Origin: Magnetococcales bacterium
GTDB lineage: Bacteria > Pseudomonadota > Magnetococcia > Magnetococcales > JADFWU01
DNA length: 64,000 nt
Reading direction: 5' to 3'
NCBI GenBank assembly: GCA_015234045.1
Contig: JADFWU010000013.1
Coordinates: 16,685-80,684 of the forward strand
Shown: positions 7,971 to 22,574 of the stretch, in pieces
How positions within the stretch are numbered: position 1 is the stretch's first letter
Layout of the letters: the number at the start of each line of letters is the position of its first letter
The notes under the pieces: model-generated
Told to the model about the DNA's origin: nothing
Seen by the model: the letters and a program-made list of their open reading frames with translations, nothing else
Databases searched by the model: none
Made by a program: the position numbers and the translations under genes

Positions 7971-10646
7971 TCAGGTTATTCTGCCACAGCAGTGCTTGAA
8001 TTTTCTACCGCTACCACAGGTACACGGCGCATTCCGGCCCACTTTCTTTTCGCTTCGCTTGAACGGTGTTCCACTGGGCTCTTCATCATCGCCCTTGGGG
8101 TTATTCATGGTCATACCGCGTTCACGTGCTTGCGCCCGCTCTGCTTCCGCCGCTTCGACCTGCTCCTGCTGCTGAACCTCAACACGAGACAGAAATTCCA
8201 CCGTATCGACTTTAATACGGTCCAACAATCCGGCAAACAGGCTGAAAGCCTCTTGTTTATACTCGTTAAGCGGATCTTTCTGGGCATAGCCGCGTAGATG
8301 AATACCCTCACGGAGATGATCCATGTTCAGAAGATGTTCTTTCCACAGAAAATCCAACATCTGCAACATGATGCTCTTTTCAAGATAGCGCATCAACGGC
8401 GGTGTCAAACGCTCTTCACGGGATTTCAGATAGGCATCAATAGCGGCCAAAGAACGCTCTTTCACCACCAGAGCCGTCACACCCTCTTCCTCTTTCCATT
8501 CATCAGCGGGAAGAGAAATAGCGAACTGTTTCATAATGGAGTCAACGAATTCCTTGGTCTGCCACTCTTCAGGATAAGCCTCTTCAGGAATATATTGCTC
8601 CAGAATGTCGGTGAACAACTCATTACGACACTCGGCCAGATATTCAGAGATATCTTCACTCTCCATCAACTGGCGGCGCTGCTCATAAATGGCCATGCGC
8701 TGATCGTTCATCACATCATCGAACTTCAGAATATTCTTACGAATATCGAAGTTGCGGCCTTCGACCTTTTTCTGTGCTGATTCAATGGCTTTATTGATCC
8801 AAGGATGGACAATGGCCTCACCCTCTTCCAAGCCTAATTTCTGCAACATGCCATCCATGCGATCAGATCCGAAGATCCGCATCAGATCATCTTGCAAAGA
8901 GAGGAAGAAACGACTGGAACCCGGATCACCCTGACGACCAGCACGACCACGTAACTGATTGTCAATGCGTCGGGATTCATGCCGCTCTGTGCCGATGATG
9001 TGCAATCCGCCAGCGGCAAGAACGGCTCTGCGCTCGGCGTTTGTCTCAGCTCGGATAGCCGCGATACGTTGTTGTTTTTCTGCCTCATCCAGACCTTCAG
9101 GCACTTCCGCTTTGATACGCATCTCGACATTACCGCCAAGCTGAATATCCGTACCACGACCCGCCATATTGGTGGCGATGGTTACCGCGTCTTTACGACC
9201 CGCTTGTGAGACAATTTCCGCTTCCATTTCGTGGAATTTAGCATTGAGCACTTTATGCGGTATTTTTAATTTTTTCAGAGCTTTGGCCAGCTCTTCAGAC
9301 TTTTCAATGGAGACGGTACCAACCAGCGTTGGTTGACCGCGTTTGTAGCAATCCTGCACATCGGTCAGGATGGCGTTCACCTTCTCGGCATGGGTGCGGT
9401 ACACCTCGTCATCATTATCCACACGCACCAGATCCTGGTTGGATGGGATGATGATCACTTCCAGATCATAGATGGATTCAAATTCCGTTGCCTCGGTATC
9501 CGCCGTGCCGGTCATGCCAGACAGAGTGTCATACATGCGGAACAGATTCTGGAATGTGATGGATGCCAGGGTTTGGGATTCGTTCTGAATCACCACCTGT
9601 TCTTTGGCTTCCAACGCTTGGTGCAGACCATCGGAGTAGCGCCGACCCGGCATCATACGTCCGGTGAACTCATCAATAATGACCACTTCGCCCTCTTTGA
9701 CGATGTAATCCTTATCATGTTCAAACAGCGCATGCGCTTTCAGGGCCTGGTTGAGATGATGGACTTTCTCAACATTGCGGACATCGTACAGATCGCCATC
9801 TTCGAGCAATCCGCGTTCACGCAACAGTTTTTCGCCATGCTCATTACCCTCTTCGGTAAGCACCACAGTACGGGCTTTTTCATCCACAGTGTAGTGCACA
9901 TCCCGCTCTAACAACGGAATGATGGCATTGATTGTATAATATTTATCGGTATTGTCTTCAGTAGGACCGGAGATAATCAACGGCGTTCTGGCTTCATCAA
10001 TCAAAATGGAGTCCACCTCATCGACGATGGCGTAGTGCAACGGCCTTTGCACCATCTCTTCCAAGGTAAACTTCATGTTGTCGCGCAGGAAATCGAAACC
10101 AAATTCGTTATTGGTGCCGTACGTGATATCCGCCTGATAGGCTGCCTGGCGCTGCACATCATCCTGACCATGCACGATCACACCAACCGTCAAACCGAGA
10201 AATTGATAGATCTGCCCCATCCATTCGGAGTCACGTTTGGCCAGATAGTCATTGACGGTCACCAAATGGGCACCCTTGCCCTCCAGGGCATTGAGATAAA
10301 GCGGCAACGTTGCCACCAGGGTTTTACCCTCACCGGTGCCCATCTCCGTAATCTTACCGTGATGCAACACCATACCTCCGACAAGCTGGACATCAAAATG
10401 TCGCATACCGGTCACCCGGCGACTGGCTTCCCGCACCGTGGCAAACGCCTCGGGCAGCAGATCGTCCAGGGTTTCGCCATCGGCCAGACGCTGACGGAAA
10501 AGCACCGTCTGACCGCGCAAGGCGGCATCGTCCAGTGTCTTCAAGCCCTCTTCCAGATCATTGATCTTCTGGACGATGGGATTGAGGCGTTTGAGGTATC
10601 GTGTATTACGGGTTCCGAAAAATTTCCGGGCCAGTGCTGAAAACAT
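7971..10646 (-). CDS. secA: Preprotein translocase ATPase SecA
   Basis: The motor that drives unfolded proteins through SecYEG. 891 residues, normal length. Walker [12 protein letters not shown] is near residue 103, the DEAD-type Walker B is [16 protein letters not shown], and the helicase motifs [13 protein letters not shown] and [13 protein letters not shown] are intact. The C-terminal zinc and SecB-binding tail [14 protein letters not shown] is complete. The start at 10646 ([20 protein letters not shown]) is chosen because it gives the family N-terminus and has an AAGGA site; an in-frame GTG/ATG 63 codons upstream would add a non-conserved leader. It is monocistronic and convergent with hpnD. 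Confidence 0.97.
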
Positions 10647-10867
10647 GTCGCTTTGATTCCTTCGGAGCAGGCCTGAACGGACATCCCAGCCTGATATTCC
10701 ATGCGGGACAGAGCCTATTCCATCCTTAATTTCACAAAATAAAAAACCAGAAATCTGAAACAAATCGAGTGCACACCTGAGGTGGGTACGCACCGATGGC
10801 GAAGCAAGCCTACCTTTTGTCGCCCAAGCAATCAAAGGCTAACCGTACTTTAAGTCACTTTTTCACC

Positions 10868-10889
10868 AAAAAAAGCCCCTCAACCGGGC
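10868..10889 (-). terminator. Rho-independent terminator overlapping the stop codon of the ATPase-TPR gene
   Basis: Read on the minus strand: a short GCCC/GGGC stem followed by seven T residues. The stem includes the TGA stop of the upstream gene. The stem is only 4-5 pairs, so strength is uncertain. Confidence 0.5.
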
Positions 10890-13800
10890 ATTTCAAACGG
10901 CGGCTCCTCTTTATTCCAAAACAGAGGCAAATCTTTGGGATCACCACAGCCATAGCTTTTGCCTTCTATGAAGGGCTTGTAGCGGTCCAGCATTTTCTGG
11001 GGTTTGGGGACATCTTTGAAGGTGTCCCGTTTTTCCTGAGGTAGCGTGCAGAGTGCGGTGACCAATTGACGAAGAGGCTCTCTCAAATCAGAGCGGCAGC
11101 CTGCCAGGAGATAACCATCATTTATAATATCCAAACGCTCTTCGTGATTGGATACTCTATTAACTATCGACTGAAAATCAGTGGCCTCAGTTTGACCTGA
11201 AGAGTTGGATATCTTAATTAACCAATCAATAAACTGCACAGCAACATCTTTGGTTTTTCTTCTTAGCCATGTTTCAGACAACTCAACTATTTCATCAAAT
11301 TGTTTTTCAAGAGCTAATGTCAATATAGTTTGATTAACAAACTCAGAAACCCCTTTCCCTTGCTGCATGATTAAAAGAGACTTCTCAAAATGCTCTCTTG
11401 CCAAATCTGTTTCATTGAGATGTTGATATAATGAGCCTAAATTTCTATGTATATAAGCCCTACCTGCTTCATCCTCAGAAACAGTTAACCCCTTCTTAAA
11501 AACAGACTTGGCTATGCTGAAATAGCCATTACGATAATAAGATAATAATCCGAGACCATTCCATGCATGCGCAAACTTTGGATCCAGATCTATCGCTTTT
11601 CGATACGATGACTCCGAGTCTTCATAACGATCCATATAATTTTGATACAAATTGCCCAACTCTTGCCATGGATGCGCTAATTTTGGATCCAGTTCTATCG
11701 CTTTTCGGTATGATGACTCCGAGTCTTCATAACGCTCCATATGATTTTGATACAAATTACCCAATCCATGCCATGGAGGCGCATACTTTGGATCCAGTTC
11801 TATCGCTTTTCGGTACGATGACTCCGATTCTTCATAACGCTCCATATGATATTGATACAAATTGCCCAATTCATTCCATGAAATCGCAACCTTTGGCTCC
11901 AGTTCTATCGCTTTTCGATACGATGACTCCGAGTCTTCATAACGCCCCATGTTATATTGATACAAATTGCCTAATTCATACCATGAACCTGCAAACTTTG
12001 AATCCAGATCTATCGCTTTTCGATACGATGACTCTGAGTCTTCATAACGCCCCATGTTATATTGATACAAATTGCCCAATCCATACCATGGATCTGCAAA
12101 CTTTGAATCCCGTTCTATTGCTTTATTATAATACAACTCAGCGTTTTTATAATTCTCCATACAATTATGATATAAATCTCCCAAAGCGGCACATACCCGA
12201 GCATCTTCTGGATCAATATCAGCAGCTTTTTTATAACATCTCTCAGCTTCAGGACATTCACCCTGTTCACCAAAAGAATCCCCAACTCGTCCCCAAATAC
12301 TTAAAACATCTTCTTCCACCGATTCAACACCTTGATAAATCAACTCTCTCAGTTCAGTATTCTTTCCAGCTTCCTGCCAAAGCTCATACCAATATTGCCC
12401 CCACTGCTCCCAAGCTGGGAACGGATGATTGCCTTTTTCGAAACCTTTTAACAGAGCAGGAACTATTGAATTATCTTCATTGAGAACAATGTGTTCTACC
12501 CACTCTTTTTGATGCTTAAAATAGTGGGAAATCAAATTAGGAATAAATTCACCATCCAGCATAGAAAGCTTTTGTCGTTCCTCATTAAACACCCCAACCA
12601 ACTCATTGATTTGAGCAGCACTCAACGTGTCAAAATCGTCCAACAATTGCTTCTTATTTTCCCAAGACATGGACGTAAAGCCGGATAACCAGTCCAAAAA
12701 TTCATCATGGCTGACCTTAACGCCCTCCGGCATTGGTTTAGAGCCAATGAGTTCTTCTCTGACAGAATCAATTGTGCGCCCTTCTTCTGGCATCAGGTCC
12801 AAAGGCCAATACCAGTGAGGCAAACGCAACAGAGGAATAAAATCCTCGCTCCGATGTTTTTTTGGCAATGAATCATCGAGAAGAAAGTGTTCTCTTTGCT
12901 GATTATCTGATTTTTTACTTTTCTGACTATCTGGTTTTCTATCCGCAGAGATACCGGTAGTGCGGGAGATTTTTTCTTGGATTTCCCGCTCCTGTTTTTC
13001 CAGAAGCTGCCCATCAATGTCTTCGGCTATATTGATTACAGATTGTACATAGGGGTGCTCACGATTTTTCAAAGCCAGAGGTAGATCTGAAACAGCGAGA
13101 TGTGGCGTATAGGGCAGCGTATATATTACAGGAACGACCTCATCCTGTTCACCTTCAGAAACATGCAGGCGTTCATCTTTCAACAACTGTTTACCCTGAT
13201 TCAATGCCTGCATGGCAAAAGGATCATCATGGATATGGGCTGGAATCGGTGAGAACACCACTTTCAGGTCTTTTGCATAACACCCCAAAGGCACGCGCTC
13301 TTTTCGAAGTGCTTTAAGGGTTAAACTAAGACCTGTTAAATTCTGCTCATTAAGTCCAGATATCAAAACGATTTCATCAGCTAAATAGCCCAGCGTCATA
13401 TTCAACAGTTCTGGAAATCCTGTACGGCAATCAATCAGAACATAGTCGAATTTTTTCTTACAATCAGGGAGGACAAACTGGGAAAAATCTTCTCTCAATT
13501 TGAATGAAAAGCCCCTTAACGCCTTGTCAAAAGGATTTTTCGACGCGCCGTTCGAACTGGGAATAGTTTGAATTTCACCATCAATGATAGTTGGCGACTG
13601 AAAACGTACCTTACCTGCGCCCATGGCCATAATTCGACCATTCCGCCCCCAAACCATCCCCTTTGGAGGAAACATTTCCCGAAACAGTCTACCGGCTGGA
13701 TAGTAGCCAAAATGATCGGGATTCTCTTTATGTTTTTCGTAGAAAATTGTCAGCAGATCACTAAATCCTCGACCTTCAAGAGAAGGATCACTCCAGGGTG

Positions 13801-13960
13801 AATTTTTCAGCATGGGAGAATAGGTCAGCCCAGGAGCCGCCAGATCCATATCCACCAAGCCAATCACTTTACCCAAAGAAGCCCAGTAGGTAGCCAGATT
13901 CATCATCAAAGAGGTTCTGCCAACACCACCTTTAAATGAGAAGAACGCTATAATTTTCAT
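10880..13960 (-). CDS. ParA/MinD-like ATPase fused to a TPR array (accessory block, paralogue 2)
   Basis: 1026 residues. Residues 1-320 are a deviant-Walker ATPase: FSFKGGVGRTSL near residue 7, Walker A' VDMDLAAPGL near 37, and switch II-like VLIDCRTGFP near 175. The P-loop lysine is replaced by arginine (GRT, not GKT). Residues about 370-540 are an unrecognised linker domain. About 560-870 hold eight or nine TPR units of 35 residues (WYGLGNLYQYNMGRYEDSES type), encoded by nearly identical 105-base repeats. The C-terminal 150 residues are conserved with the paralogue at 16.0-19.4 kb and end in SYGCGDPKD...MPG. Its ATG overlaps the stop of the preceding gene (ATGA). Cytosolic; function unknown. 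This architecture recalls conflict/defence NTPases, by inference only. Confidence 0.85.
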   Translation of the reverse strand: MKIIAFFSFKGGVGRTSLMMNLATYWASLGKVIGLVDMDLAAPGLTYSPMLKNSPWSDPSLEGRGFSDLLTIFYEKHKENPDHFGYYPAGRLFREMFPPKGMVWGRNGRIMAMGAGKVRFQSPTIIDGEIQTIPSSNGASKNPFDKALRGFSFKLREDFSQFVLPDCKKKFDYVLIDCRTGFPELLNMTLGYLADEIVLISGLNEQNLTGLSLTLKALRKERVPLGCYAKDLKVVFSPIPAHIHDDPFAMQALNQGKQLLKDERLHVSEGEQDEVVPVIYTLPYTPHLAVSDLPLALKNREHPYVQSVINIAEDIDGQLLEKQEREIQEKISRTTGISADRKPDSQKSKKSDNQQREHFLLDDSLPKKHRSEDFIPLLRLPHWYWPLDLMPEEGRTIDSVREELIGSKPMPEGVKVSHDEFLDWLSGFTSMSWENKKQLLDDFDTLSAAQINELVGVFNEERQKLSMLDGEFIPNLISHYFKHQKEWVEHIVLNEDNSIVPALLKGFEKGNHPFPAWEQWGQYWYELWQEAGKNTELRELIYQGVESVEEDVLSIWGRVGDSFGEQGECPEAERCYKKAADIDPEDARVCAALGDLYHNCMENYKNAELYYNKAIERDSKFADPWYGLGNLYQYNMGRYEDSESSYRKAIDLDSKFAGSWYELGNLYQYNMGRYEDSESSYRKAIELEPKVAISWNELGNLYQYHMERYEESESSYRKAIELDPKYAPPWHGLGNLYQNHMERYEDSESSYRKAIELDPKLAHPWQELGNLYQNYMDRYEDSESSYRKAIDLDPKFAHAWNGLGLLSYYRNGYFSIAKSVFKKGLTVSEDEAGRAYIHRNLGSLYQHLNETDLAREHFEKSLLIMQQGKGVSEFVNQTILTLALEKQFDEIVELSETWLRRKTKDVAVQFIDWLIKISNSSGQTEATDFQSIVNRVSNHEERLDIINDGYLLAGCRSDLREPLRQLVTALCTLPQEKRDTFKDVPKPQKMLDRYKPFIEGKSYGCGDPKDLPLFWNKEEPPFEMPG
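11560..12190 (-). repeat. Tandem 105-base repeats coding for TPR units
   Basis: The block GATGACTCCGAGTCTTCATA recurs with small changes every 105 bases (about 11604, 11709, 11814, 11919, 12024). Each unit codes for one 35-residue TPR. The nucleotide similarity is higher than protein conservation would need, which suggests recent duplication or gene conversion. Confidence 0.8.
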
Positions 13961-14946
13961 GCCACATACTCTTCACTACTAAAAGACTCTCCTGGCATTG
14001 TATTAATAGCTTCAATTACACATTCATCTAAACCTCCATCAACCAAATCGAATGTAACGCTCTTTGATTCTGAAAGTGGTATTTCAGAATCTTCTAATTC
14101 ACCCTCTCTCTCTGACGGTTCAAGAATTTTATCTTCATCTTTCTTTGCCAGCACAGAAACTCCACTACTACGAATCATTTCAACCTGATCCGACCAAATT
14201 TTATTCACCCGCCTTGCCGCAGCCTCATATTTTTCATAGGAACAGTTCTCAAAAAATGGCTGCACTTTCCCTTCATAAATAATCGGTAAAACTTCCAACG
14301 CTTTCGGCATCAGGCGAGTAACCGCTGCACGACGAACCATAAAACTCCAAAGCAGATCCTCATGCTGACTATCAACACATAGCTCGCCTATATCAGTCCA
14401 CACCTCTATTTGTTTCAATGACTCAATAGACAGTTCACCTTGATTATCAATCATTCCCTGCAAAATCTTCTGTGGAATCTTTATATCAAGACGATCTAAC
14501 AATTTATTTCCAGCAGCTCTTCTCATCTGCTTGATGTCATCATGCGTGGCAAACATCAATTTCTTTGTCCCACACATCCACTTTCCTGACAGCGGCGGCA
14601 AGAATTGTGATCGAGATTTTGCTTCGGTGTTTTCAACAAACCTGGGAAAGGAACCGGCCAACGCTTCATACTCTTTTAAAAATTCAGAATCCATATAAAA
14701 AGCACGGATATTTCTTCCTACGAACTTTTTTTCAACAACCGGACAGAGCAACCCTGTTTCTGAATACTCTTCAAAATCAGATCGGCTGATAATTTTTGTA
14801 ATATCTTCCAGAATATCATCCAACAACCCCAATTTATCCGGCTCTTGTGTGCTATGTACAATCACAGCCTCCTCACCACAGCCATCTGCGAGACTTCTGT
14901 TGACAGCTTCAACAATTACTTTTTGATTGTCTGTCGTCTCAGTCAT
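13957..14946 (-). CDS. Unrecognised 329-residue protein, middle gene of the ATPase-TPR operon
   Basis: Not recognised. The start at 14946 (MTETTDNQKVIVEAVNR) is chosen because it overlaps the upstream stop as ATGA; an alternative start lies ten codons earlier. The protein is soluble and acidic with no signal peptide or membrane segment. It begins with a helix and the stretch GCGEEAVIVHSTQEPDKLG. The centre has MRRAAGNKLLDRLDIKIPQK and a helical region around VRRAAVTRLMPKALEVLP. The tail (about 265-329) is low-complexity and rich in Glu and Ser. Its stop overlaps the start of the ATPase-TPR gene, so both are co-translated. This suggests that it works with that ATPase, perhaps as an effector or adaptor (inference). 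Confidence 0.75.
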   Translation of the reverse strand: MTETTDNQKVIVEAVNRSLADGCGEEAVIVHSTQEPDKLGLLDDILEDITKIISRSDFEEYSETGLLCPVVEKKFVGRNIRAFYMDSEFLKEYEALAGSFPRFVENTEAKSRSQFLPPLSGKWMCGTKKLMFATHDDIKQMRRAAGNKLLDRLDIKIPQKILQGMIDNQGELSIESLKQIEVWTDIGELCVDSQHEDLLWSFMVRRAAVTRLMPKALEVLPIIYEGKVQPFFENCSYEKYEAAARRVNKIWSDQVEMIRSSGVSVLAKKDEDKILEPSEREGELEDSEIPLSESKSVTFDLVDGGLDECVIEAINTMPGESFSSEEYVA

Positions 14947-15830
14947 CTCATACCGCCCTGCTTTTTCTCTATCCAATTTTTCATAAAATCACGCACGCCT
15001 TGTTCCGGGTCAGCGCCATAATCCAGAAAACCATCTGGCAATTCGGGAGGTTCCGACACCCCTTCCTCACCTCTGACATAGGCTTCTTTCCATAGAGCCA
15101 ACGCGCCAAGAACCTTTCGATAAGTTTCCTTTGGCATTGCCCAGCCTAACAATGCATCAGTAACAGAAATAGGTTTTGGTCCGGTTAATCGCACTTCCCA
15201 AGTCCAAGAGGCCCAGTCATCAGACAACTTGTCCACATAGCGAACGGGAAGATCACAATGATCCCAACAAGCATCTTTCAATTCTGGGCAACTTGCAGGT
15301 TTGTCACCATCCATATAATTTTGCCACTCAGAACCATAGAAGGACCACAAATATTCATGGAAGCCAGCACGCCACTGATCCAATTCCATCCGTGTTTCCT
15401 GTAAAAATTTTACAGCCTTAAACCGCTCTTTATCCTCAGATTCAACAGGAAACGGCTTGCAATTTCCTGTGAACACACCACCGCTGTCACACGGCGTTGC
15501 ACAACCATCCTTTTCGCGCTCTATCTCCGGATGATAACACAGCATAATTAGCTCACCATAAACCTCATCTCGACCAATTGCTCTTTTTTCAGCCTTATTT
15601 CGGTCAGGCCGCCCAGCTTTTCCAGCATACATGTAAACAGCAGGCATCCAACCGCATTTTTCCTGCACGTCCCAACAACGACTGCCTTTTTTGGACACAT
15701 GATAGAAAAGAGAGTCCTGGTTTTTATCTTTAAAGGCATCAAAAATCCAATCAACAGGTGTCGTATGCACCAACGGCATCCAAGATGCGGGTGATTTACC
15801 TTCCCGAAACACTTGTTCAATCATGGCCAT
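14943..15830 (-). CDS. Unrecognised Cys/Trp-rich protein, first gene of the ATPase-TPR operon
   Basis: Not recognised. 295 residues from the ATG at 15830, supported by GGAG seven bases upstream; an in-frame ATG 21 codons earlier would add a hydrophobic, non-conserved-looking leader. The sequence is unusually rich in Trp and Cys (CWDVQEKCGWMPAVYMY, CATPCDSGGVFTGNC, CPELKDACWDHCD). Several Cys pairs could bind metal, but no known zinc-finger spacing fits. Near the C-terminus is GALALWKEAYVRGEEGV. It opens a three-gene operon that is coupled by ATGA overlaps to the 329-residue protein and the ATPase-TPR protein. Confidence 0.72.
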   Translation of the reverse strand: MAMIEQVFREGKSPASWMPLVHTTPVDWIFDAFKDKNQDSLFYHVSKKGSRCWDVQEKCGWMPAVYMYAGKAGRPDRNKAEKRAIGRDEVYGELIMLCYHPEIEREKDGCATPCDSGGVFTGNCKPFPVESEDKERFKAVKFLQETRMELDQWRAGFHEYLWSFYGSEWQNYMDGDKPASCPELKDACWDHCDLPVRYVDKLSDDWASWTWEVRLTGPKPISVTDALLGWAMPKETYRKVLGALALWKEAYVRGEEGVSEPPELPDGFLDYGADPEQGVRDFMKNWIEKKQGGMR

Positions 15831-15941
15831 ATACAACTCCAGTAAGTACGCATATCCACAACTCAAAAAACATAATCGCTTACAGTTGTTCAACGCAATC
15901 CTGAAGATACTATATGATATTTATTCTTTGTTAAAGATTTG
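15831..15941 (-). promoter_or_regulatory. Likely promoter region of the three-gene ATPase-TPR operon
   Basis: An AT-rich stretch directly upstream of the first gene and after the hairpin that closes the preceding transcript. It has TATA-like sequences (TATCATATAGT on the minus strand). No unambiguous -35 element. Confidence 0.35.
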
Positions 15942-15968
15942 ACCGGGCTTCAAGGAGGGAAGCCCGGT
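15942..15968 (-). terminator. Hairpin terminator of the larger ATPase-TPR gene
   Basis: ACCGGGCTTC (15942-15951) and GAAGCCCGGT (15959-15968) form a perfect 10-pair stem with a 7-base loop, just past the stop codon at 15984. The T-tract is TTTTGTT on the plus strand and weaker on the minus strand. Confidence 0.65.
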
Positions 15969-15983
15969 TTTGTTGAGAAGACC

Positions 15984-18900
15984 TCAGCCAGGCATATCCA
16001 ACACCGGTTCGTCCTCTTTGAAGAACCGGTTCATATCATTCGGATCGCCACAACCAATGCTTAATCGTGCAACAAATGGTTTGTAGCGGTCCAAAATCTC
16101 TTTTGGAAGAGCTACATCTTTAAAGGTTTCCAGCTTTTCAGCAGGCAATCCATAGAGCTTATTGGCAAAGCGGCGTAATGGTAGGCGCAGATCTGCCCGG
16201 AAGCCGGATATCCGATAACAAGCCGTGAGTATTTCGAACCGTGTGTAGTGGCTGGAGAGCGTATCTATGACCGATTGCGTGTTCATGGCATCCAGTGGTG
16301 TTTTTTGGAGCCAGGCGGCAAAATGTAGATTAGCGTCTTTTGGGAATTTTATTAGCCAATCATTCAGAATATCCGCTGATTGATCGCCCTTTTTGTTCAG
16401 GCAGGCTTCCAAAATGATCTGAATATGGCAATGATGGCGGTATAGATCGGGCCTGAGACCGGATAAGGATTGATCCAAGTGCGCGATGGCCATACCGTTT
16501 TCATCGGCATGCTGGTAAAGAAAACCAAGATCCCGTTGCAGGGTTGCATTGATATTTTCATCATCAGCCAGTGACAAACCTTTTTCAATCAATTTCTTGG
16601 CGGCGCTGTAATGGCCTCGGTGCATCCAATAAAGCAAGCCCATACCATGCCAGGGATAGGCATATCTTGGATCAAGCTCAATGGACTTACGATAAGCCGC
16701 TTCCGCTTCATCAAGACGACCCAGATGATCTTGCAACAGATTGCCCAACCCATTCCACGCAGAGGCATAACTCGGCTTTAAAGTCAGTGCATGTTGATAG
16801 GCTGATTCCGACTCGGCATAGCGTGCGAAGTGATTTTTCAGCAGGTTGCCCAGCTTGTTCCAGGGATCAACCTCTGAGGCATCAAGCTCAATCGATTTCC
16901 GATAAGCGGCTTCCGCCTCTTCCGGTCTACCCAATTTATATTGATACAGATTGCCCAGACCATGCCAAGGCGCGGCCAGAGAGCCATCCGCTTCGATAAT
17001 CTTGATGTACGCCTCTTCCGAAGCGTCTGGCCGGTGCAGCTTGTACTGATACAAATTGCCCAACGTATACCAGGGATGGGCATAATTGGGATCAAGCTCA
17101 ATAGCCTTTTTGAATACAGCCTCTGAATCTTCTGGACGGTCCAGTTTATTTTGATACAACTTGCCCAGACCATGCCACGCATCGGCGTATTTTGGATCAA
17201 GTTCCAACGCCTGTTGATAGGCCGCTTCCGAAGCCTCAGGCCTGTCCAGTACATGTTGATAAAGATTGGCCAACCCTTGGTGATAATTGGGCAGACGCGG
17301 TTCCAACTCAATGGCGGTCTGATAAGCGGCTTCAGACTCCTCTGCGCGGTCGAGTTTATAGTGCAACAGCTTGGCTAGTCCGTACCACGGATACGCCAGC
17401 GAACCATCCAAGGCAATGGCCTTACGGTACGCCTTTTCAGACTCTTCATAGCGATTGAGATGGTTTTTGAGCAGATTACCCAGACCATGCCAAGTATCGG
17501 CGTTGTTGGGATCACTCTCCAACGCTTTCCGATAGGCCGACTCAGCCTGTTCTGGACGATTGAGCGTATATTGATACAGATTACCAAGCCCTTGCCAGGC
17601 ATTGGCCAGCGACTCATCCAGCGCCAGCGCCTGACGGTACACTTTTTCCGCATCGGAGGGACGGTCAAGGCGTTCATGCAACAGCCGACCAAAGTTTGAC
17701 CACGCTTCAGGATCATTCCGATCCTGGTCAATACTCTTGATAAATGCACCCGCCGCTTGATCATACTCTCCAGAAGCGGCAAGACGGATGCCTAAACGAT
17801 TCCAAGCTGAAGCATCTTCGGTATCCATTTTAAACGCCTCCTGCATAGCCTGTTCATAACGTGGGGGGTCATTGCGAAACAGTTCTGCCAACGCAACCCA
17901 AAAAATCGGTAGATCTTCCCAGCTTGGGAATGATCCTTTGCGTTGAGCCGCCTGATCCATAAGCGGCTTGATGATCTTACCGGGCTGATTCAGAATCACG
18001 CGATCTGCCCAGGCAATCTGATGGTGCAGATAGAACACCATGCGTGAGGTCGGGTCTGAGCCATCCGGCACAGCGTGTCTTTGCCGTTCCCTATCCAATA
18101 TATCAATCAGCGCGTTGAGTTGCGACTGTGACAGATCCGGCATAAGAGCTAAAATACGTTTTTTCTCACCCACTGAAAAAGCCACCGAACCGGCCAGCAG
18201 GTCCAAAATTCCATCTTTATCCGCAATCACACCCTGCGGCAACGTGCCAATCAATCCCGCGCGAACCTCTGCGATACGATCCTTTTGACCTGTTGCCAAG
18301 AGCGGCCAGTACCAACGCGGCAGAATCAATTGAAATTCCGTAGATTCAGCCCTACTATCAGCGCTATCCAGATATTTCTTGGACGATTTCACCAGCCCTG
18401 CCACAGCCGCATCGTCACCAGTGAAGGACACCCCAACACACCGACCCATCGCATACTGGGTCTTTTGGATTGTGTGTTGCACGGTTGCCCCATCAATCTG
18501 TTCAGCAATCGCCATCACGGTCCGCACATAGGGCAGATCCTGACGATTCAACAGCAACGGCAGATCCGATCCGGCAAGCCGAGCATCATAGGGCATAACG
18601 AAACACGCTGGCGTGGTTTCGACTTGAATATCTTCAGGCGGCACCAAAGCATACGCAGAAGACAAACGCACCCCTTTTTCCAACGCCTGCATGGCCAGCG
18701 GACAGATATTGATCTGACTCTGCAACGGCGACAACGCCACCACCACGTCACGAGCATACGCACCAAACGGAATCGCCTCTTCACGCAACGTTTGGAGCGT
18801 TTCAGCAAAAACGGATAAATTTTGACTGGTCAAACCGGACATCAACACGATCTGATCCGCCATATTACCCAGCATCAGAGCCAGTAGATCAGGGTATCCC

Positions 18901-19424
18901 GTCCGAAAATCCACCAACACATAATCAAACGCCCGCCCACTGTCTGGCAAAACGTAATTTTTTACTCTCTTTCTAAAATCACGATAAAAAGCCTGCACTT
19001 GTTCACTATCAAGCTCTTCAGCAAGTGGTAAACAGATCTCACCACTACGCACGGAACCCGCACCCAAGGCCCACACCTGACCAGTGCGCCCCCACTTCTG
19101 TCCGTTGGGTAGCGTCACTTCTCTGAACAGGGCGGAGAGCGGCAACGCTTCAGCCTCTTCAGACGTATCAATCGCATTAAAATAGGCGATTAAATCACTT
19201 ACGCCACACCCTTCAAATGCCGGATCAGGCCACGCAAGATCGTTGATAAGCGGCAAACCGGTCAAACCCGGTGCTGCCAGATCCATATCAACCAAACCAA
19301 CCACGTTGCCAAGTGAGGCCCAATAGGCGGCCAACTCAGTGATCAGAGCAGTGCGACCAACACCGGCCTGACACGAAAAGAATGCAATGATTTTCATGAT
19401 GCTAATAGTGTCAGTTTTACTCAA
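15984..19424 (-). CDS. ParA/MinD-like ATPase fused to a long TPR array (accessory block, paralogue 1)
   Basis: About 1146 residues; paralogue of the 10.9-14.0 kb protein along its whole length. The N-terminal ATPase has Walker A' VDMDLAAPGLTGLP and switch II-like VDFRTGYPDLL. The P-loop reads SCQAGVGRTAL: the KGG signature lysine is changed to Gln and the P-loop Lys to Arg, so ATP hydrolysis may be lost. Residues about 350-560 form an unrecognised domain. At least twelve TPR units (WHGLGNLYQYKLGRPEEAEA type) follow. The C-terminal tail ends in SIGCGDPND...MPG as in the paralogue. Two starts are possible: TTG at 19424 after GGAAAAGA, or ATG at 19397 (MKIIAFFS) with a poor ribosome site. Divergent from dnaA. 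Function unknown. Confidence 0.85.
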   Translation of the reverse strand: MSKTDTISIMKIIAFFSCQAGVGRTALITELAAYWASLGNVVGLVDMDLAAPGLTGLPLINDLAWPDPAFEGCGVSDLIAYFNAIDTSEEAEALPLSALFREVTLPNGQKWGRTGQVWALGAGSVRSGEICLPLAEELDSEQVQAFYRDFRKRVKNYVLPDSGRAFDYVLVDFRTGYPDLLALMLGNMADQIVLMSGLTSQNLSVFAETLQTLREEAIPFGAYARDVVVALSPLQSQINICPLAMQALEKGVRLSSAYALVPPEDIQVETTPACFVMPYDARLAGSDLPLLLNRQDLPYVRTVMAIAEQIDGATVQHTIQKTQYAMGRCVGVSFTGDDAAVAGLVKSSKKYLDSADSRAESTEFQLILPRWYWPLLATGQKDRIAEVRAGLIGTLPQGVIADKDGILDLLAGSVAFSVGEKKRILALMPDLSQSQLNALIDILDRERQRHAVPDGSDPTSRMVFYLHHQIAWADRVILNQPGKIIKPLMDQAAQRKGSFPSWEDLPIFWVALAELFRNDPPRYEQAMQEAFKMDTEDASAWNRLGIRLAASGEYDQAAGAFIKSIDQDRNDPEAWSNFGRLLHERLDRPSDAEKVYRQALALDESLANAWQGLGNLYQYTLNRPEQAESAYRKALESDPNNADTWHGLGNLLKNHLNRYEESEKAYRKAIALDGSLAYPWYGLAKLLHYKLDRAEESEAAYQTAIELEPRLPNYHQGLANLYQHVLDRPEASEAAYQQALELDPKYADAWHGLGKLYQNKLDRPEDSEAVFKKAIELDPNYAHPWYTLGNLYQYKLHRPDASEEAYIKIIEADGSLAAPWHGLGNLYQYKLGRPEEAEAAYRKSIELDASEVDPWNKLGNLLKNHFARYAESESAYQHALTLKPSYASAWNGLGNLLQDHLGRLDEAEAAYRKSIELDPRYAYPWHGMGLLYWMHRGHYSAAKKLIEKGLSLADDENINATLQRDLGFLYQHADENGMAIAHLDQSLSGLRPDLYRHHCHIQIILEACLNKKGDQSADILNDWLIKFPKDANLHFAAWLQKTPLDAMNTQSVIDTLSSHYTRFEILTACYRISGFRADLRLPLRRFANKLYGLPAEKLETFKDVALPKEILDRYKPFVARLSIGCGDPNDMNRFFKEDEPVLDMPG
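16640..17800 (-). repeat. TPR-coding repeat array of paralogue 1
   Basis: Twelve or more 35-residue units with the Trp-x-Gly-Leu-Gly-Asn-Leu signature. They are more diverged at DNA level than the units of paralogue 2, so this array is probably older. Confidence 0.65.
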
Positions 19425-19789
19425 TCTTTTCCAGGTATTCTAGGGCTGTACCAAACAAAAAGTGCTTTCATGACACATTTGTTCCGAAGCCCGCAAAACC
19501 TAATTCCAGCATAGCACAAACCCGGTTGGCTGATTCCCTGTTTCACGCTACATATTGCCGCTGACCAATCACCTGCGCTATTATCATGCACTGGCGCGTG
19601 GGGATGCGCTCTCCCGATCAACAAAAAGAACCTTGAATCTTCCCGACGGGAACACCTGAAAAGGGTGGGCCAAGCGCTTTTTTTTGCCCTCTTTTTCTCG
19701 TTCAGAACCTTTCCCCGCACCCTTTGTTAGTCTGTTCAATTGAAAACAGATCGTTATCCTCGCCTGACCATCTAAATAAAAAAACAGTC
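19425..19789. other. Divergent region between the ATPase-TPR gene and dnaA
   Basis: This 365-base stretch carries the promoters of dnaA and of the ATPase-TPR gene. I searched it by eye for DnaA boxes (TTATNCACA) and found none clear; the nearest is TTATCCTCG near 19754. There is an A/T tract just before dnaA and a T-run near 19677-19685. No gene is supported here. Confidence 0.4.
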
Positions 19790-21178
19790 ATGGAAATTTG
19801 GGACAAAGTACTGGATGCATTAAAAGAGCAGGTTTCCGAGCAAGTATTCAGTGCCTGGATATCTCCACTACGCCCGGCTGGTCCCATTCGGGGCAGTGAG
19901 TTGGAAATTCTGGTGGGCAATGACTTTTCCCTTGATTGGGTGAAAAGTCGCTATGACTCGCTACTGACCGCTTCATTCTCTGCCGAAGCGGGTCGCGCCA
20001 TCACCATTGTCTACACAATAGACACCAACGCCCCAATCAAGCCCGCCCAAGAAGATAATGCAAAATCCGCAGAGCAAAAAGACACCCCCGAAACACCAAA
20101 ACAAGCCGCGAAACCAAAACAAGCCGATCCTTCTGATGAATCCACCACCCTGCCCCGTGAAAGCGGGTTAGACCCGCGCTACACCTTTGACTCATTCGTG
20201 GTCGGTGGCTGTAATCAGTTTGTCCATGCCGCTTCCGAACGCGTAGCGGAAGCCCCGGCAACCGCTTACAACCCGCTGTTTATCTACGGCGGTGTCGGTC
20301 TGGGTAAAACGCATTTGATGCATGCTATCGGACATAAAGTGCTTGAAGATCGCCCCGATGCGCGGGTGCTCTATATCTCCTCGGAAAAATTCATGACCGA
20401 GTTGATCAACTCATTGCGCTTTAAACGGGTATTCAATTTTAAAGAGGAATTCCGGTCAGTCGATCTACTATTGATTGATGATATTCAGTTCATCGCTGGA
20501 AAGAAGGCCACTCAGGAAGAGTTTTTTCACACCTTCAACGCCCTGTTCGAAGCCAATAAGCAGATCATCATGACCTCAGATCGGTTTCCCAATGAGATCG
20601 ACAATCTGGAAGAGCGCCTGCGCTCTCGCTTCGGCTGGGGCTTGGTGGCGGATATTCAACCGCCTGAGCTGGAAACCCGTGTGGCAATTCTGAAGAAAAA
20701 AGCCAGCATGGAAGGCTTGGAACTGCAAGATGATGTGGCTTTTTTCCTCGCCAACGCCATTCAAACCAACGTCCGGGAACTGGAAGGCGCTTTGGTGCGT
20801 GTTTCAGCCTTCTCGTCACTCACCAGACAGCCGGTGACCATGGAGTTGGTCAAAGAGTCGTTGCGGGATATCGTCAAAGGCCAGGAGCGCCAGATTACCA
20901 TTGAAGGCATTCAGAAAACCGTCTGCGCCTTCTATAAAATCCGCCCACAGGATATGCGTTCAAACAAACGCTCACGCCTGTTTGCCCATCCGCGACAGAT
21001 TGCCATGTACCTCTGCAAACAACTGACCCGCCACTCCTACCCGGAAGTAGGTCATCAGTTTGGTGGACGCGACCACACCACGGTTCTTTATGCCGTCCGC
21101 AGCATTGATAAAAAAATGAAAAGCGATGGCAATTTGGCCGAAGAGGTTGAGACACTCAAGAACATGATTACCAAGTAA
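19790..21178 (+). CDS. dnaA: Chromosomal replication initiator DnaA
   Basis: Binds DnaA boxes, unwinds oriC and loads the helicase. 462 residues from ATG 19790 (MEIWDKVLDALKEQVSEQVF), the family N-terminus; a TTG 22 codons upstream is less likely. Domain I is residues 1-75, a Pro/Lys/Gln-rich linker spans 80-125, and the AAA+ domain has Walker A GGVGLGKTHL near 167 and Walker B LLIDDIQF. The domain IV signature HPRQIAMYLCKQLTR and GGRDHTTVLYAV is intact. dnaN does not follow; instead the gene is convergent with, and overlaps by 11 bases, a decayed restriction gene. recF and gyrB lie 20 kb away. Confidence 0.97.
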   Translation: MEIWDKVLDALKEQVSEQVFSAWISPLRPAGPIRGSELEILVGNDFSLDWVKSRYDSLLTASFSAEAGRAITIVYTIDTNAPIKPAQEDNAKSAEQKDTPETPKQAAKPKQADPSDESTTLPRESGLDPRYTFDSFVVGGCNQFVHAASERVAEAPATAYNPLFIYGGVGLGKTHLMHAIGHKVLEDRPDARVLYISSEKFMTELINSLRFKRVFNFKEEFRSVDLLLIDDIQFIAGKKATQEEFFHTFNALFEANKQIIMTSDRFPNEIDNLEERLRSRFGWGLVADIQPPELETRVAILKKKASMEGLELQDDVAFFLANAIQTNVRELEGALVRVSAFSSLTRQPVTMELVKESLRDIVKGQERQITIEGIQKTVCAFYKIRPQDMRSNKRSRLFAHPRQIAMYLCKQLTRHSYPEVGHQFGGRDHTTVLYAVRSIDKKMKSDGNLAEEVETLKNMITK

Positions 21179-21668
21179 AGCCATAGAAAGGACTTAAATT
21201 GACGGGAAGCAACCGCCGTTTACGCTCCTTAGCATACTTAGCTGAACGCGTTGTTTGTTCAGCAAGATAAGCGACAAGTTGAGCGTCCCAGGAAGGCGAA
21301 CCAAAGTTTTTAAGGAGACTAAGAGTCTCTGGTTCAATTTGATACACAGCTTTGGGACTATTAACTGGGCGATCTGGCTCATCTGGATTATATAAGGCAA
21401 TACCAGCATCTACAAACTGATGCATTGTTTGCCGACGAAAAGTCTCACGAGTGTTGGGTGCATACGCCTTTCCATAGTGATCTCGACTGAAATCCATCAT
21501 GGGCGTAATGCCTTTCAGTGGACTTTCGGCTTGTATCCAGCTTTTCTCAGGAGAAAGATCCAACAGTGCAAGAAGACAAAGTGCTGAACGCTCATTCTGC
21601 TGAGCACGAGGCATTTCAAGCGCATCAAGAATAACGATAGCTTCTGTAATGTTGCGATGAAGACTCAT
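21168..21668 (-). pseudogene. BsuBI/PstI-type restriction endonuclease, C-terminal catalytic part lost
   Basis: 166 residues matching the N-terminal helical/HTH domain of BsuBI/PstI restriction enzymes (MSLHRNITEAIVILDALEMP, FRRQTMHQFVDAGIALYNPD). The frame ends soon after KYAKERKRRLLPVNLSP, the point where the family normally goes on into the catalytic domain. It then reads FYGFTW and stops inside the dnaA 3' end. So the nuclease half appears to be deleted. Its start overlaps the end of the methylase remnant as ATGA, the usual M-R operon arrangement. Family assignment is from recognition of the N-terminal sequence; the truncation is seen directly. Confidence 0.7.
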
Positions 21669-22481
21669 GCAATGCTTTCAATTTTTTGATCAATATTTTG
21701 TTGAGAAAAAGGACTGTCAACTTTTTTAACCCACTGCCCAATCTTGATAAGAGTATCACGATTTGGATACATCATGCGACGAAGGTCTGTCACATTGACT
21801 TGAGTATGACCACTGAAGCAACGAAAGTGCCGATCAACTGCTGATGAATTTCCTAAACGACCGATAATAAGGACCATTACAAAAACTCCGCGGGATAATG
21901 GCCACGAGTTGCCCTAGTGGTTCCAATAATGCAAGCGATAGAGATAGAAATGCAGAGTATAAATTTACTGTTTCAATACCCACTGATCTCAGAATTTTTC
22001 GATAGTGCGAAGTATTCTTAATCTTATGATAGGGCGGATTCAGGATTGCGTGAGTAAAACGCTGGCCACTTCCATCTCGCAGATTTAAAACAGCATCATC
22101 AACAAAATCAGTCGTGATAATTCGCGATCTCAGAGAGCTCTGTCCCCTCAACAAATGCAGGGTTTGCCTTAAAGAGTCGATGAGGTTCTCATCAATTTCA
22201 TAAGCGGTAAGATCAATACGGCTGTTTTCTCCGTGACGACGGAGAAAAGCGTGTAATAGCGCTCCTCTTCCAGCCCCAGCATCAAGAAGACGGATTGTTT
22301 CCCCTCTTCTAGGAAGAAACAACAAACTCATAAAATCAGCAATGGTTGTTGGCGTTACAAATTGGCAGAGAGAAGATTTTCTTTCAGAACATGCAGGCGG
22401 CACAAGTGCAAAAGGCTCCTCAAAATCCCGAAGAGAATCAAGCCGATGCGTTTGTAAAAAACTGCTTTTTTCAAGACTCAT
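21665..22481 (-). pseudogene. BsuBI/PstI-type adenine methyltransferase with internal deletion and frameshift
   Basis: The upstream part (start at 22481, MSLEKSSFLQTHRLD) has the SAM motif LLDAGAGRGALLHAF and the catalytic adenine-methylase motif NPPYHKI, then SFCNGPYYRSFRKF. It stops at 21834. The family's C-terminal segment (HFRCFSGHTQVNVTDLRRMMYP) follows at once in another frame and ends at 21665. The roughly 200 residues that normally lie between these parts are missing. A deletion with frame change is therefore evident and the enzyme should be inactive. It is followed by the equally truncated endonuclease gene. Confidence 0.75.
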
Positions 22482-22574
22482 TGAAAGACCGCCGCTACTA
22501 AGCAAGATAAAAGATCAGGACCATGTAAAAAGCATAGCTAATGGGTATCAAACAAGCTTCTATCCTGCACAACT

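Follow-up and report, generated by a model that had tools for sequence, protein, structure and literature searches.

Three consecutive genes, U1, U2, and B, recur as a unit across Magnetococcales genomes, and comparative sequence data support them as one conserved module that encodes two small proteins of no assignable family and a large KGGVGR ATPase-TPR protein. They were found in a 64,000-nucleotide stretch of DNA from a Magnetococcales bacterium, referred to below as the window. Our main reading, to which we assign a probability of about one half, is that the three genes of U1-U2-B make up a conflict module that moves horizontally and is probably directed against phage; every biochemical role in it, as well as its trigger and the defense outcome, is what we infer from the comparisons described below.

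The four genes and their setting

The first-pass annotation had described four genes at 10880-19424 as a single module. All four ORFs are present at this place in the ORF list, and every one is on the minus strand; the genes A, U1, U2, and B lie consecutively between secA (7971-10835, minus strand) and dnaA (19724-21178, plus strand). The features of the region are as follows:

10880..13960, minus strand: B, a KGGVGR ParA/MinD-type ATPase with a middle domain, a TPR array, and a conserved tail (1026 aa); gene 3 of the conserved unit
12827..13960, minus strand: KGGVGR ATPase domain of B plus linker, with the KGGVGRT P-loop, DMDLAAPGL, and DYVLIDCRTG (NF047398, 99.7 bits; alignments)
12332..12826, minus strand: middle domain of B, LPxWxWP...FLxxLS...EKxxxL...ERQK...HQKxW...W
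11557..12124, minus strand: tandem repeat coding for TPRs of B, 105-nt unit, 5.4 copies, 88% match (Pfam TPR matches)
13957..14946, minus strand: U2, gene 2 of the unit, with a predicted beta-rich N-terminal domain and a helical bundle; ATGA overlaps on both sides
14943..15893, minus strand: U1, gene 1 of the unit, with the enzyme-like invariant residues Y87, G91, E125, D136, G138, R175, W232, and E233
15942..15968, minus strand: hairpin between A and U1, with the stem CCGGGCTTC; terminator-like, with a poor T tail
15984..19424, minus strand: A, 1146 aa, a degenerate paralogue of B with the P-loop QAGVGRT, which adjoins the module and lies outside the conserved unit

The ORF starts are those of the longest frame, which for U2 is a TTG at 14976 (13957-14976). 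Taking the ATG at 14946 as the start of U2 instead gives ATGA at both the U1/U2 and the U2/B junctions, and the overlaps reported in the first-pass annotation are then present. For U1, translation more likely begins at an ATG at 15830 than at the start of the longest frame. The 1146 residues of A are counted from a TTG, and its ATG at 19397 lines up with the start of B. The hairpin between A and U1 lies in an 82-nt stretch that folds at -21.7 kcal/mol (z -4.5), and it is absent from the listing of a separate scan. On the plus strand, a 306-aa antisense ORF at 11563-12483 arises from the 105-nt repeats of B and is very likely not a gene.

Beyond dnaA, Pfam detected the N-terminal domain alone of a BsuBI/PstI endonuclease (21168-21668) and a fragment of an Eco57I-type methylase (21834-22505). 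Judged by these domains, 21168-22505 holds the remnants of a BsuBI/PstI-type restriction-modification system, and the decayed system named earlier is therefore real. We found no support for it as a component of the module; it is a neighbor only.

Recurrence of the unit and the position of gene A

The order U1-U2-ATPase, on one strand and with genes that mostly overlap or lie close together, was found in 13 Magnetococcales loci; this count takes in one locus at a contig end where the ATPase breaks off after its first residues (L038) and one where U1 was found by a separate search (L033). In a sample of the phylum, rather than all public genomes, and with loci near contig ends incomplete, U1 was identified in 14 of the 48 genomes of the class, and none of some 350 genomes from outside it carried U1. 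A scan of genome contigs with U1 returned only four loci, all from Magnetococcales, and neither one scan of viral contigs with a U1 homologue nor a search of plasmids with U1 yielded a relative. The divergences of U1, U2, and the ATPase are strongly correlated (Mantel r of 0.90, 0.92, and 0.97). The neighborhood survey also ran in favor of the module, as homologues of the small proteins do not occur mainly without the ATPase; the pair U1-U2 clearly lacks it in a single case (locus L039 of genome G042).

Placement of the unit varies. Apart from a few short tblastx matches, the surroundings of four loci from one genus have no synteny in common; flanks are shared in two locus pairs of other genera, and mobility is therefore not universal. 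The repeats vary as well: among ATPases that are 76-78% identical over their first 540 aa, the numbers of recognized TPR units, by a simple motif count, are 0, 6, and 9. In one relative (L028, 5945-7969) the P-loop and the middle domain are present and most of the ATPase domain between them is missing, with no frameshift. Two U1-U2-ATPase modules (L025, 6282-16106; L027, 3-6353) lie immediately downstream of very large genes, and the large gene next to the module in L025/L070 encodes a TPS (hemagglutinin-type) secretion domain.

The single module proposed earlier thus held for U1-U2-B, with its 13 loci and correlated divergence, and not for A, for which the related loci offer no counterpart and which has a native GC3 and is set apart by the strong hairpin. 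GC3 is 0.51 in A, compared with a window background of 0.526 (sd 0.053), and 0.35-0.41 in U1, U2, and B, which resemble the restriction-modification remnants (0.335 and 0.339) in this respect. Foreign GC3 in the module, together with the remnants, upholds the view of the region as accessory.

The paralogy of A and B is confirmed: the two proteins share the ParA-like N-terminus (48% identity), the middle domain (32%), the tail (39%), and TPRs. They are mutual closest relatives within our sample, and A is sister to B in the ATPase tree (99/98), on a branch of 1.62 compared with a median of 0.36. A recent duplication of B as the source of A was rejected on GC3 (0.51 versus 0.38) and on an identity of only ~38%. 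On composition, a common origin of A and U1-U2-B nearby in time appears unlikely.

Two working ATPases in one module are likewise not supported: A scores 80.1 bits on the NF047398 model (below its 90-bit cut-off) and has lost both P-loop lysines (QAGVGRT), including the signature lysine, so that the KGGVGR motif is not retained. Of the 38 near-invariant ATPase positions, 8 are altered in A (K10Q and G11A among them), compared with 0-4 in other relatives. Tentatively, we take A to be a pseudo-enzyme that was resident first and U1-U2-B to have arrived later; A may still serve as a scaffold or decoy, or it may be decaying.

The ATPase, its partners, and its relatives

The N-terminal domain of B matches the NCBIfam model NF047398, "KGGVGR-motif variant AAA ATPase", above its curated cut-off (99.7 versus 90 bits). 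The KGGVGR motif is intact (KGGVGRT), and B retains 37 of the 38 near-invariant ATPase residues. The Walker P-loop lysine is arginine in B and in every aligned relative, and the signature lysine is kept in all proteins except A; B does not have the both-lysine deviant Walker A (KGGxxK) of active ParA/MinD ATPases. A search of 398 genomes drawn from the phylum gave matches to the middle domain of B in Magnetococcales only. One protein that lacks the ATPase (L115, 8086-10773) also contains the core of this domain, together with TPRs and an FGE-sulfatase (formylglycine-type) domain. The TPR array of B carries the 105-nt DNA tandem repeat, and no such repeat was reported in A.

Neither A nor B has a Pfam match to a STAND NTPase domain (NB-ARC/NACHT) at E values up to 1 among the best 25 families, and vWA and MoxR domains are absent from all four proteins in Pfam and NCBIfam searches. 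PADLOC returned no full match of the four proteins to a known anti-phage system protein set. Its candidate family PDC-M28B partially matches B and A, with the match confined to the ParA/ATPase domain, and its PrimPol model matches A over the TPRs.

The two partner proteins were described earlier as unassignable, and they remain so: searches of Pfam, NCBIfam, and PADLOC with U1 and U2 came back empty, and those of PHROGs gave nothing above noise (E values of 0.15-0.28). When all homologues of both proteins were scanned against Pfam at E 10, only isolated chance matches appeared, and the sequence profiles of U1 and U2 (built on shallow families of 15 and 12 sequences) matched no PDB chain with an E value below 0.5. 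Both proteins are full length and carry all invariant residues of their families. In U1 these are Y87, A90, G91, E125, P134, D136, G138, P147, W174, R175, Y193, W230, W232, and E233, a set that looks like that of an enzyme. An AlphaFold2 model of U1 from five sequences was unusable (pLDDT 38), and its reading as an effector enzyme therefore relies on conserved residues and gene position. The predicted model of U2 (pLDDT 70) starts with a small beta-rich domain and continues as a helical bundle. It has no Foldseek match at E <= 0.001 in PDB or BFVD, and its best Z in VIA is 7.2, to designed helical repeats, which is within the noise for helical models. The TPR, 14-3-3, and translin entries in the match list were dismissed as typical helical background, a rejection that covers only folds in that list. 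Pfam scans recognized no DNA-binding domain in U2. Of the profile and structure searches proposed for this region, then, those with the B N-terminus led to a family (NF047398) and those with U1 and U2 led to none, nor did the U2 fold find a match above noise.

Searches with the middle and ATPase domains identified other clades of the same ATPase. Two co-directional genes lie directly upstream of almost every ATPase with a viewable contig (the exceptions are L108, L110, and gene A), and the families of these genes differ. Besides U1-U2 (type I), we distinguish type II, with the pair X1-X2 (10 loci in all, one of which, L152, has only X2 recognized); type III, with the pair Y1-Y2 (4 loci); type IV, with the partner Z (2 loci), which is related to type III in the ATPase tree; and a distant ATPase type (L153 and L154). 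X1, the product of gene 1 in type II, matches carbon-nitrogen hydrolase above the Pfam cut-off, with the nitrilase triad of Glu, Lys, and Cys intact in 7 of 7 rows, and X2, encoded by gene 2, contains a winged helix (wHTH) of MarR-like type. One such type II module, with the hydrolase, the winged-HTH protein, and the KGGVGR ATPase-TPR protein, occupies 6135-11515 of L101, in a single-contig genome. In hhalign comparisons, no homology was detected between the partner families of one type and those of another, except for a weak match between Y2 and Z, and U1 and U2 have no detectable homology to any other partner family. U1 also lacks a CN_hydrolase match and hhalign similarity to X1, and we found no indication that it is a nitrilase-type hydrolase. 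Partner type changes 5 times on the ATPase tree, which is the minimum; shuffled labels gave a mean of 13.3 changes, and none of 200 shuffles was that low. Because the other clades have different gene pairs and the tree follows partner type, the ATPase-TPR protein is the constant component, and the pair varies by clade.

Possible function and comparison with known systems

In the conflict-module reading, B would be a nucleotide-binding sensor or scaffold with a ParA/MinD fold and an arginine for the P-loop lysine, in which the variable TPR array recognizes the trigger and the Arg-P-loop domain acts as a nucleotide-dependent switch or dimer. U1 would be the effector, a predicted enzyme acting on a cellular substrate, and U2 an adaptor or restraint that links B to U1. 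Binding of a trigger to the TPRs might shift the nucleotide-dependent state of B, with U1 then released or activated through U2, although the direction of these events is a guess. The related ATPases would have the same layout with other pairs, such as the nitrilase-type hydrolase and the winged-HTH protein, and the pair could be exchangeable between clades.

The earlier idea of a sensor or scaffold with effectors fits the comparative data. As is usual for conflict systems, the repeats vary, the placement is patchy, and the partners are swapped; a role in defense would fit. In genome G042, U1-U2 pairs lie next to TIR-CHAT-NTPase-TPR genes (L037, 123-4577; L039, 1-8194) whose mutual identity is 75%. 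G034 has a truncated U1 after a CHAT-NTPase-TPR gene, and in G045, U1 adjoins the remnant of one. On the other hand, the neighbors of several loci are ordinary genes (topoisomerase, PilY1, Lnt, and secretin) rather than clear defense islands, and the PADLOC match is only partial, to a candidate family and in the ParA domain; both observations count against the conflict reading.

The two small overlapping genes ahead of the ATPase are also what one would expect of a toxin-antidote style unit, in which U1 is the toxin, U2 the antidote and possibly a repressor, and B the regulatory ATPase of their complex; such a unit would persist by addiction, and its response would be to stress and not to phage in particular. 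The wHTH in gene 2 of type II agrees with this, as does an MqsA antitoxin-like gene that, together with a 120-aa ORF, precedes the ATPase in the sole relative found outside the class (G293; L149, 1915-4730). However, a classical toxin-antitoxin pair would usually be smaller than U1 and U2, no DNA-binding domain was recognized in U2, and the TPR array and conserved middle domain imply more than autoregulation; we consider this explanation unlikely. Less probable again is a ParA/MinD-like role without any defense function, in which B positions or assembles U1-U2 as cargo, for example at the membrane or in a secretion system. The fold, the common use of TPR scaffolds in assembly, and the two type I loci downstream of large genes (one of them, L025, with the TPS secretion domain) are in its favor; nevertheless, the arginine at the P-loop lysine position in all relatives, the patchy distribution of U1 in the class, the mostly different flanks, and the change of partner pairs by clade all argue against it. 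We are most doubtful that the region is a fading genomic island of no current function, with A already a pseudo-enzyme and U1-U2-B heading the same way: the adjoining restriction-modification remnants, the P-loop residues lost in A, and the missing ATPase core in L028 speak for decay, but the near-complete set of ATPase residues in B and the full-length U1 and U2 with their invariant residues speak against it.

The conflict-module reading can be extended, with considerably less confidence, to a new modular class of conflict systems in Magnetococcales. Such a class would possess a constant KGGVGR-ATPase-TPR sensor and exchangeable, clade-specific effector-adaptor pairs (U1-U2, nitrilase-wHTH, and two further families), with U1 as an effector enzyme whose fold is new and with U1-U2 alternatively wired to a TIR-CHAT-NTPase-TPR protein. 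If this proves true, an Arg-P-loop protein of the ParA/MinD type fills the sensor role that is usual for STAND NTPases and does so with interchangeable effector pairs, and two uncharacterized protein families gain a role that can be put to the test. Work could start directly from the type II modules, as the catalytic triad of their predicted effector is recognizable. Among the papers searched, none contained "KGGVGR" and none joined ParA/MinD, nitrilase, and phage defense.

Several known systems resemble parts of this arrangement. By its curated cut-off, the N-terminal domain of B is a member of NF047398; that model spans the ATPase domain only, and the middle domain, the TPRs, and the U1-U2 pair are outside its scope. 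Similarly, the ATPase domain of B and A fits part of PDC-M28B, but the ParA portion alone matches, and the remaining architecture is unlike, as far as the match shows. The TIR/CHAT-STAND-TPR proteins that adjoin U1(-U2) in three genomes are alike in their layout of an NTPase and a TPR sensor; however, their NTPase is of another class, and their effector domains are fused in one chain, whereas here they are separate genes. In VMAP-ternary and peptide-processing conflict systems, SIMIBI MinD/ParA-like domains predicted to be inactive occur with AP-ATPase and TPRs (Kaur et al. 2020, PMC7159879). Because the KGGVGR domain is already known from conflict systems (PMC7159879), only the arrangement and the partners look new. 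In contrast to those systems, the ATPase-TPR protein is the constant component here, and the four proteins lack vWA, MoxR, VMAP, metallopeptidase, and AP-ATPase domains. Finally, classical ParA/MinD partition ATPases have the fold and the positions of Walker A' (DMDL) and Walker B (LIDCRTG) in common with B, whereas B and every one of its relatives have arginine in place of the P-loop lysine, and B bears TPRs and is encoded with U1-U2.
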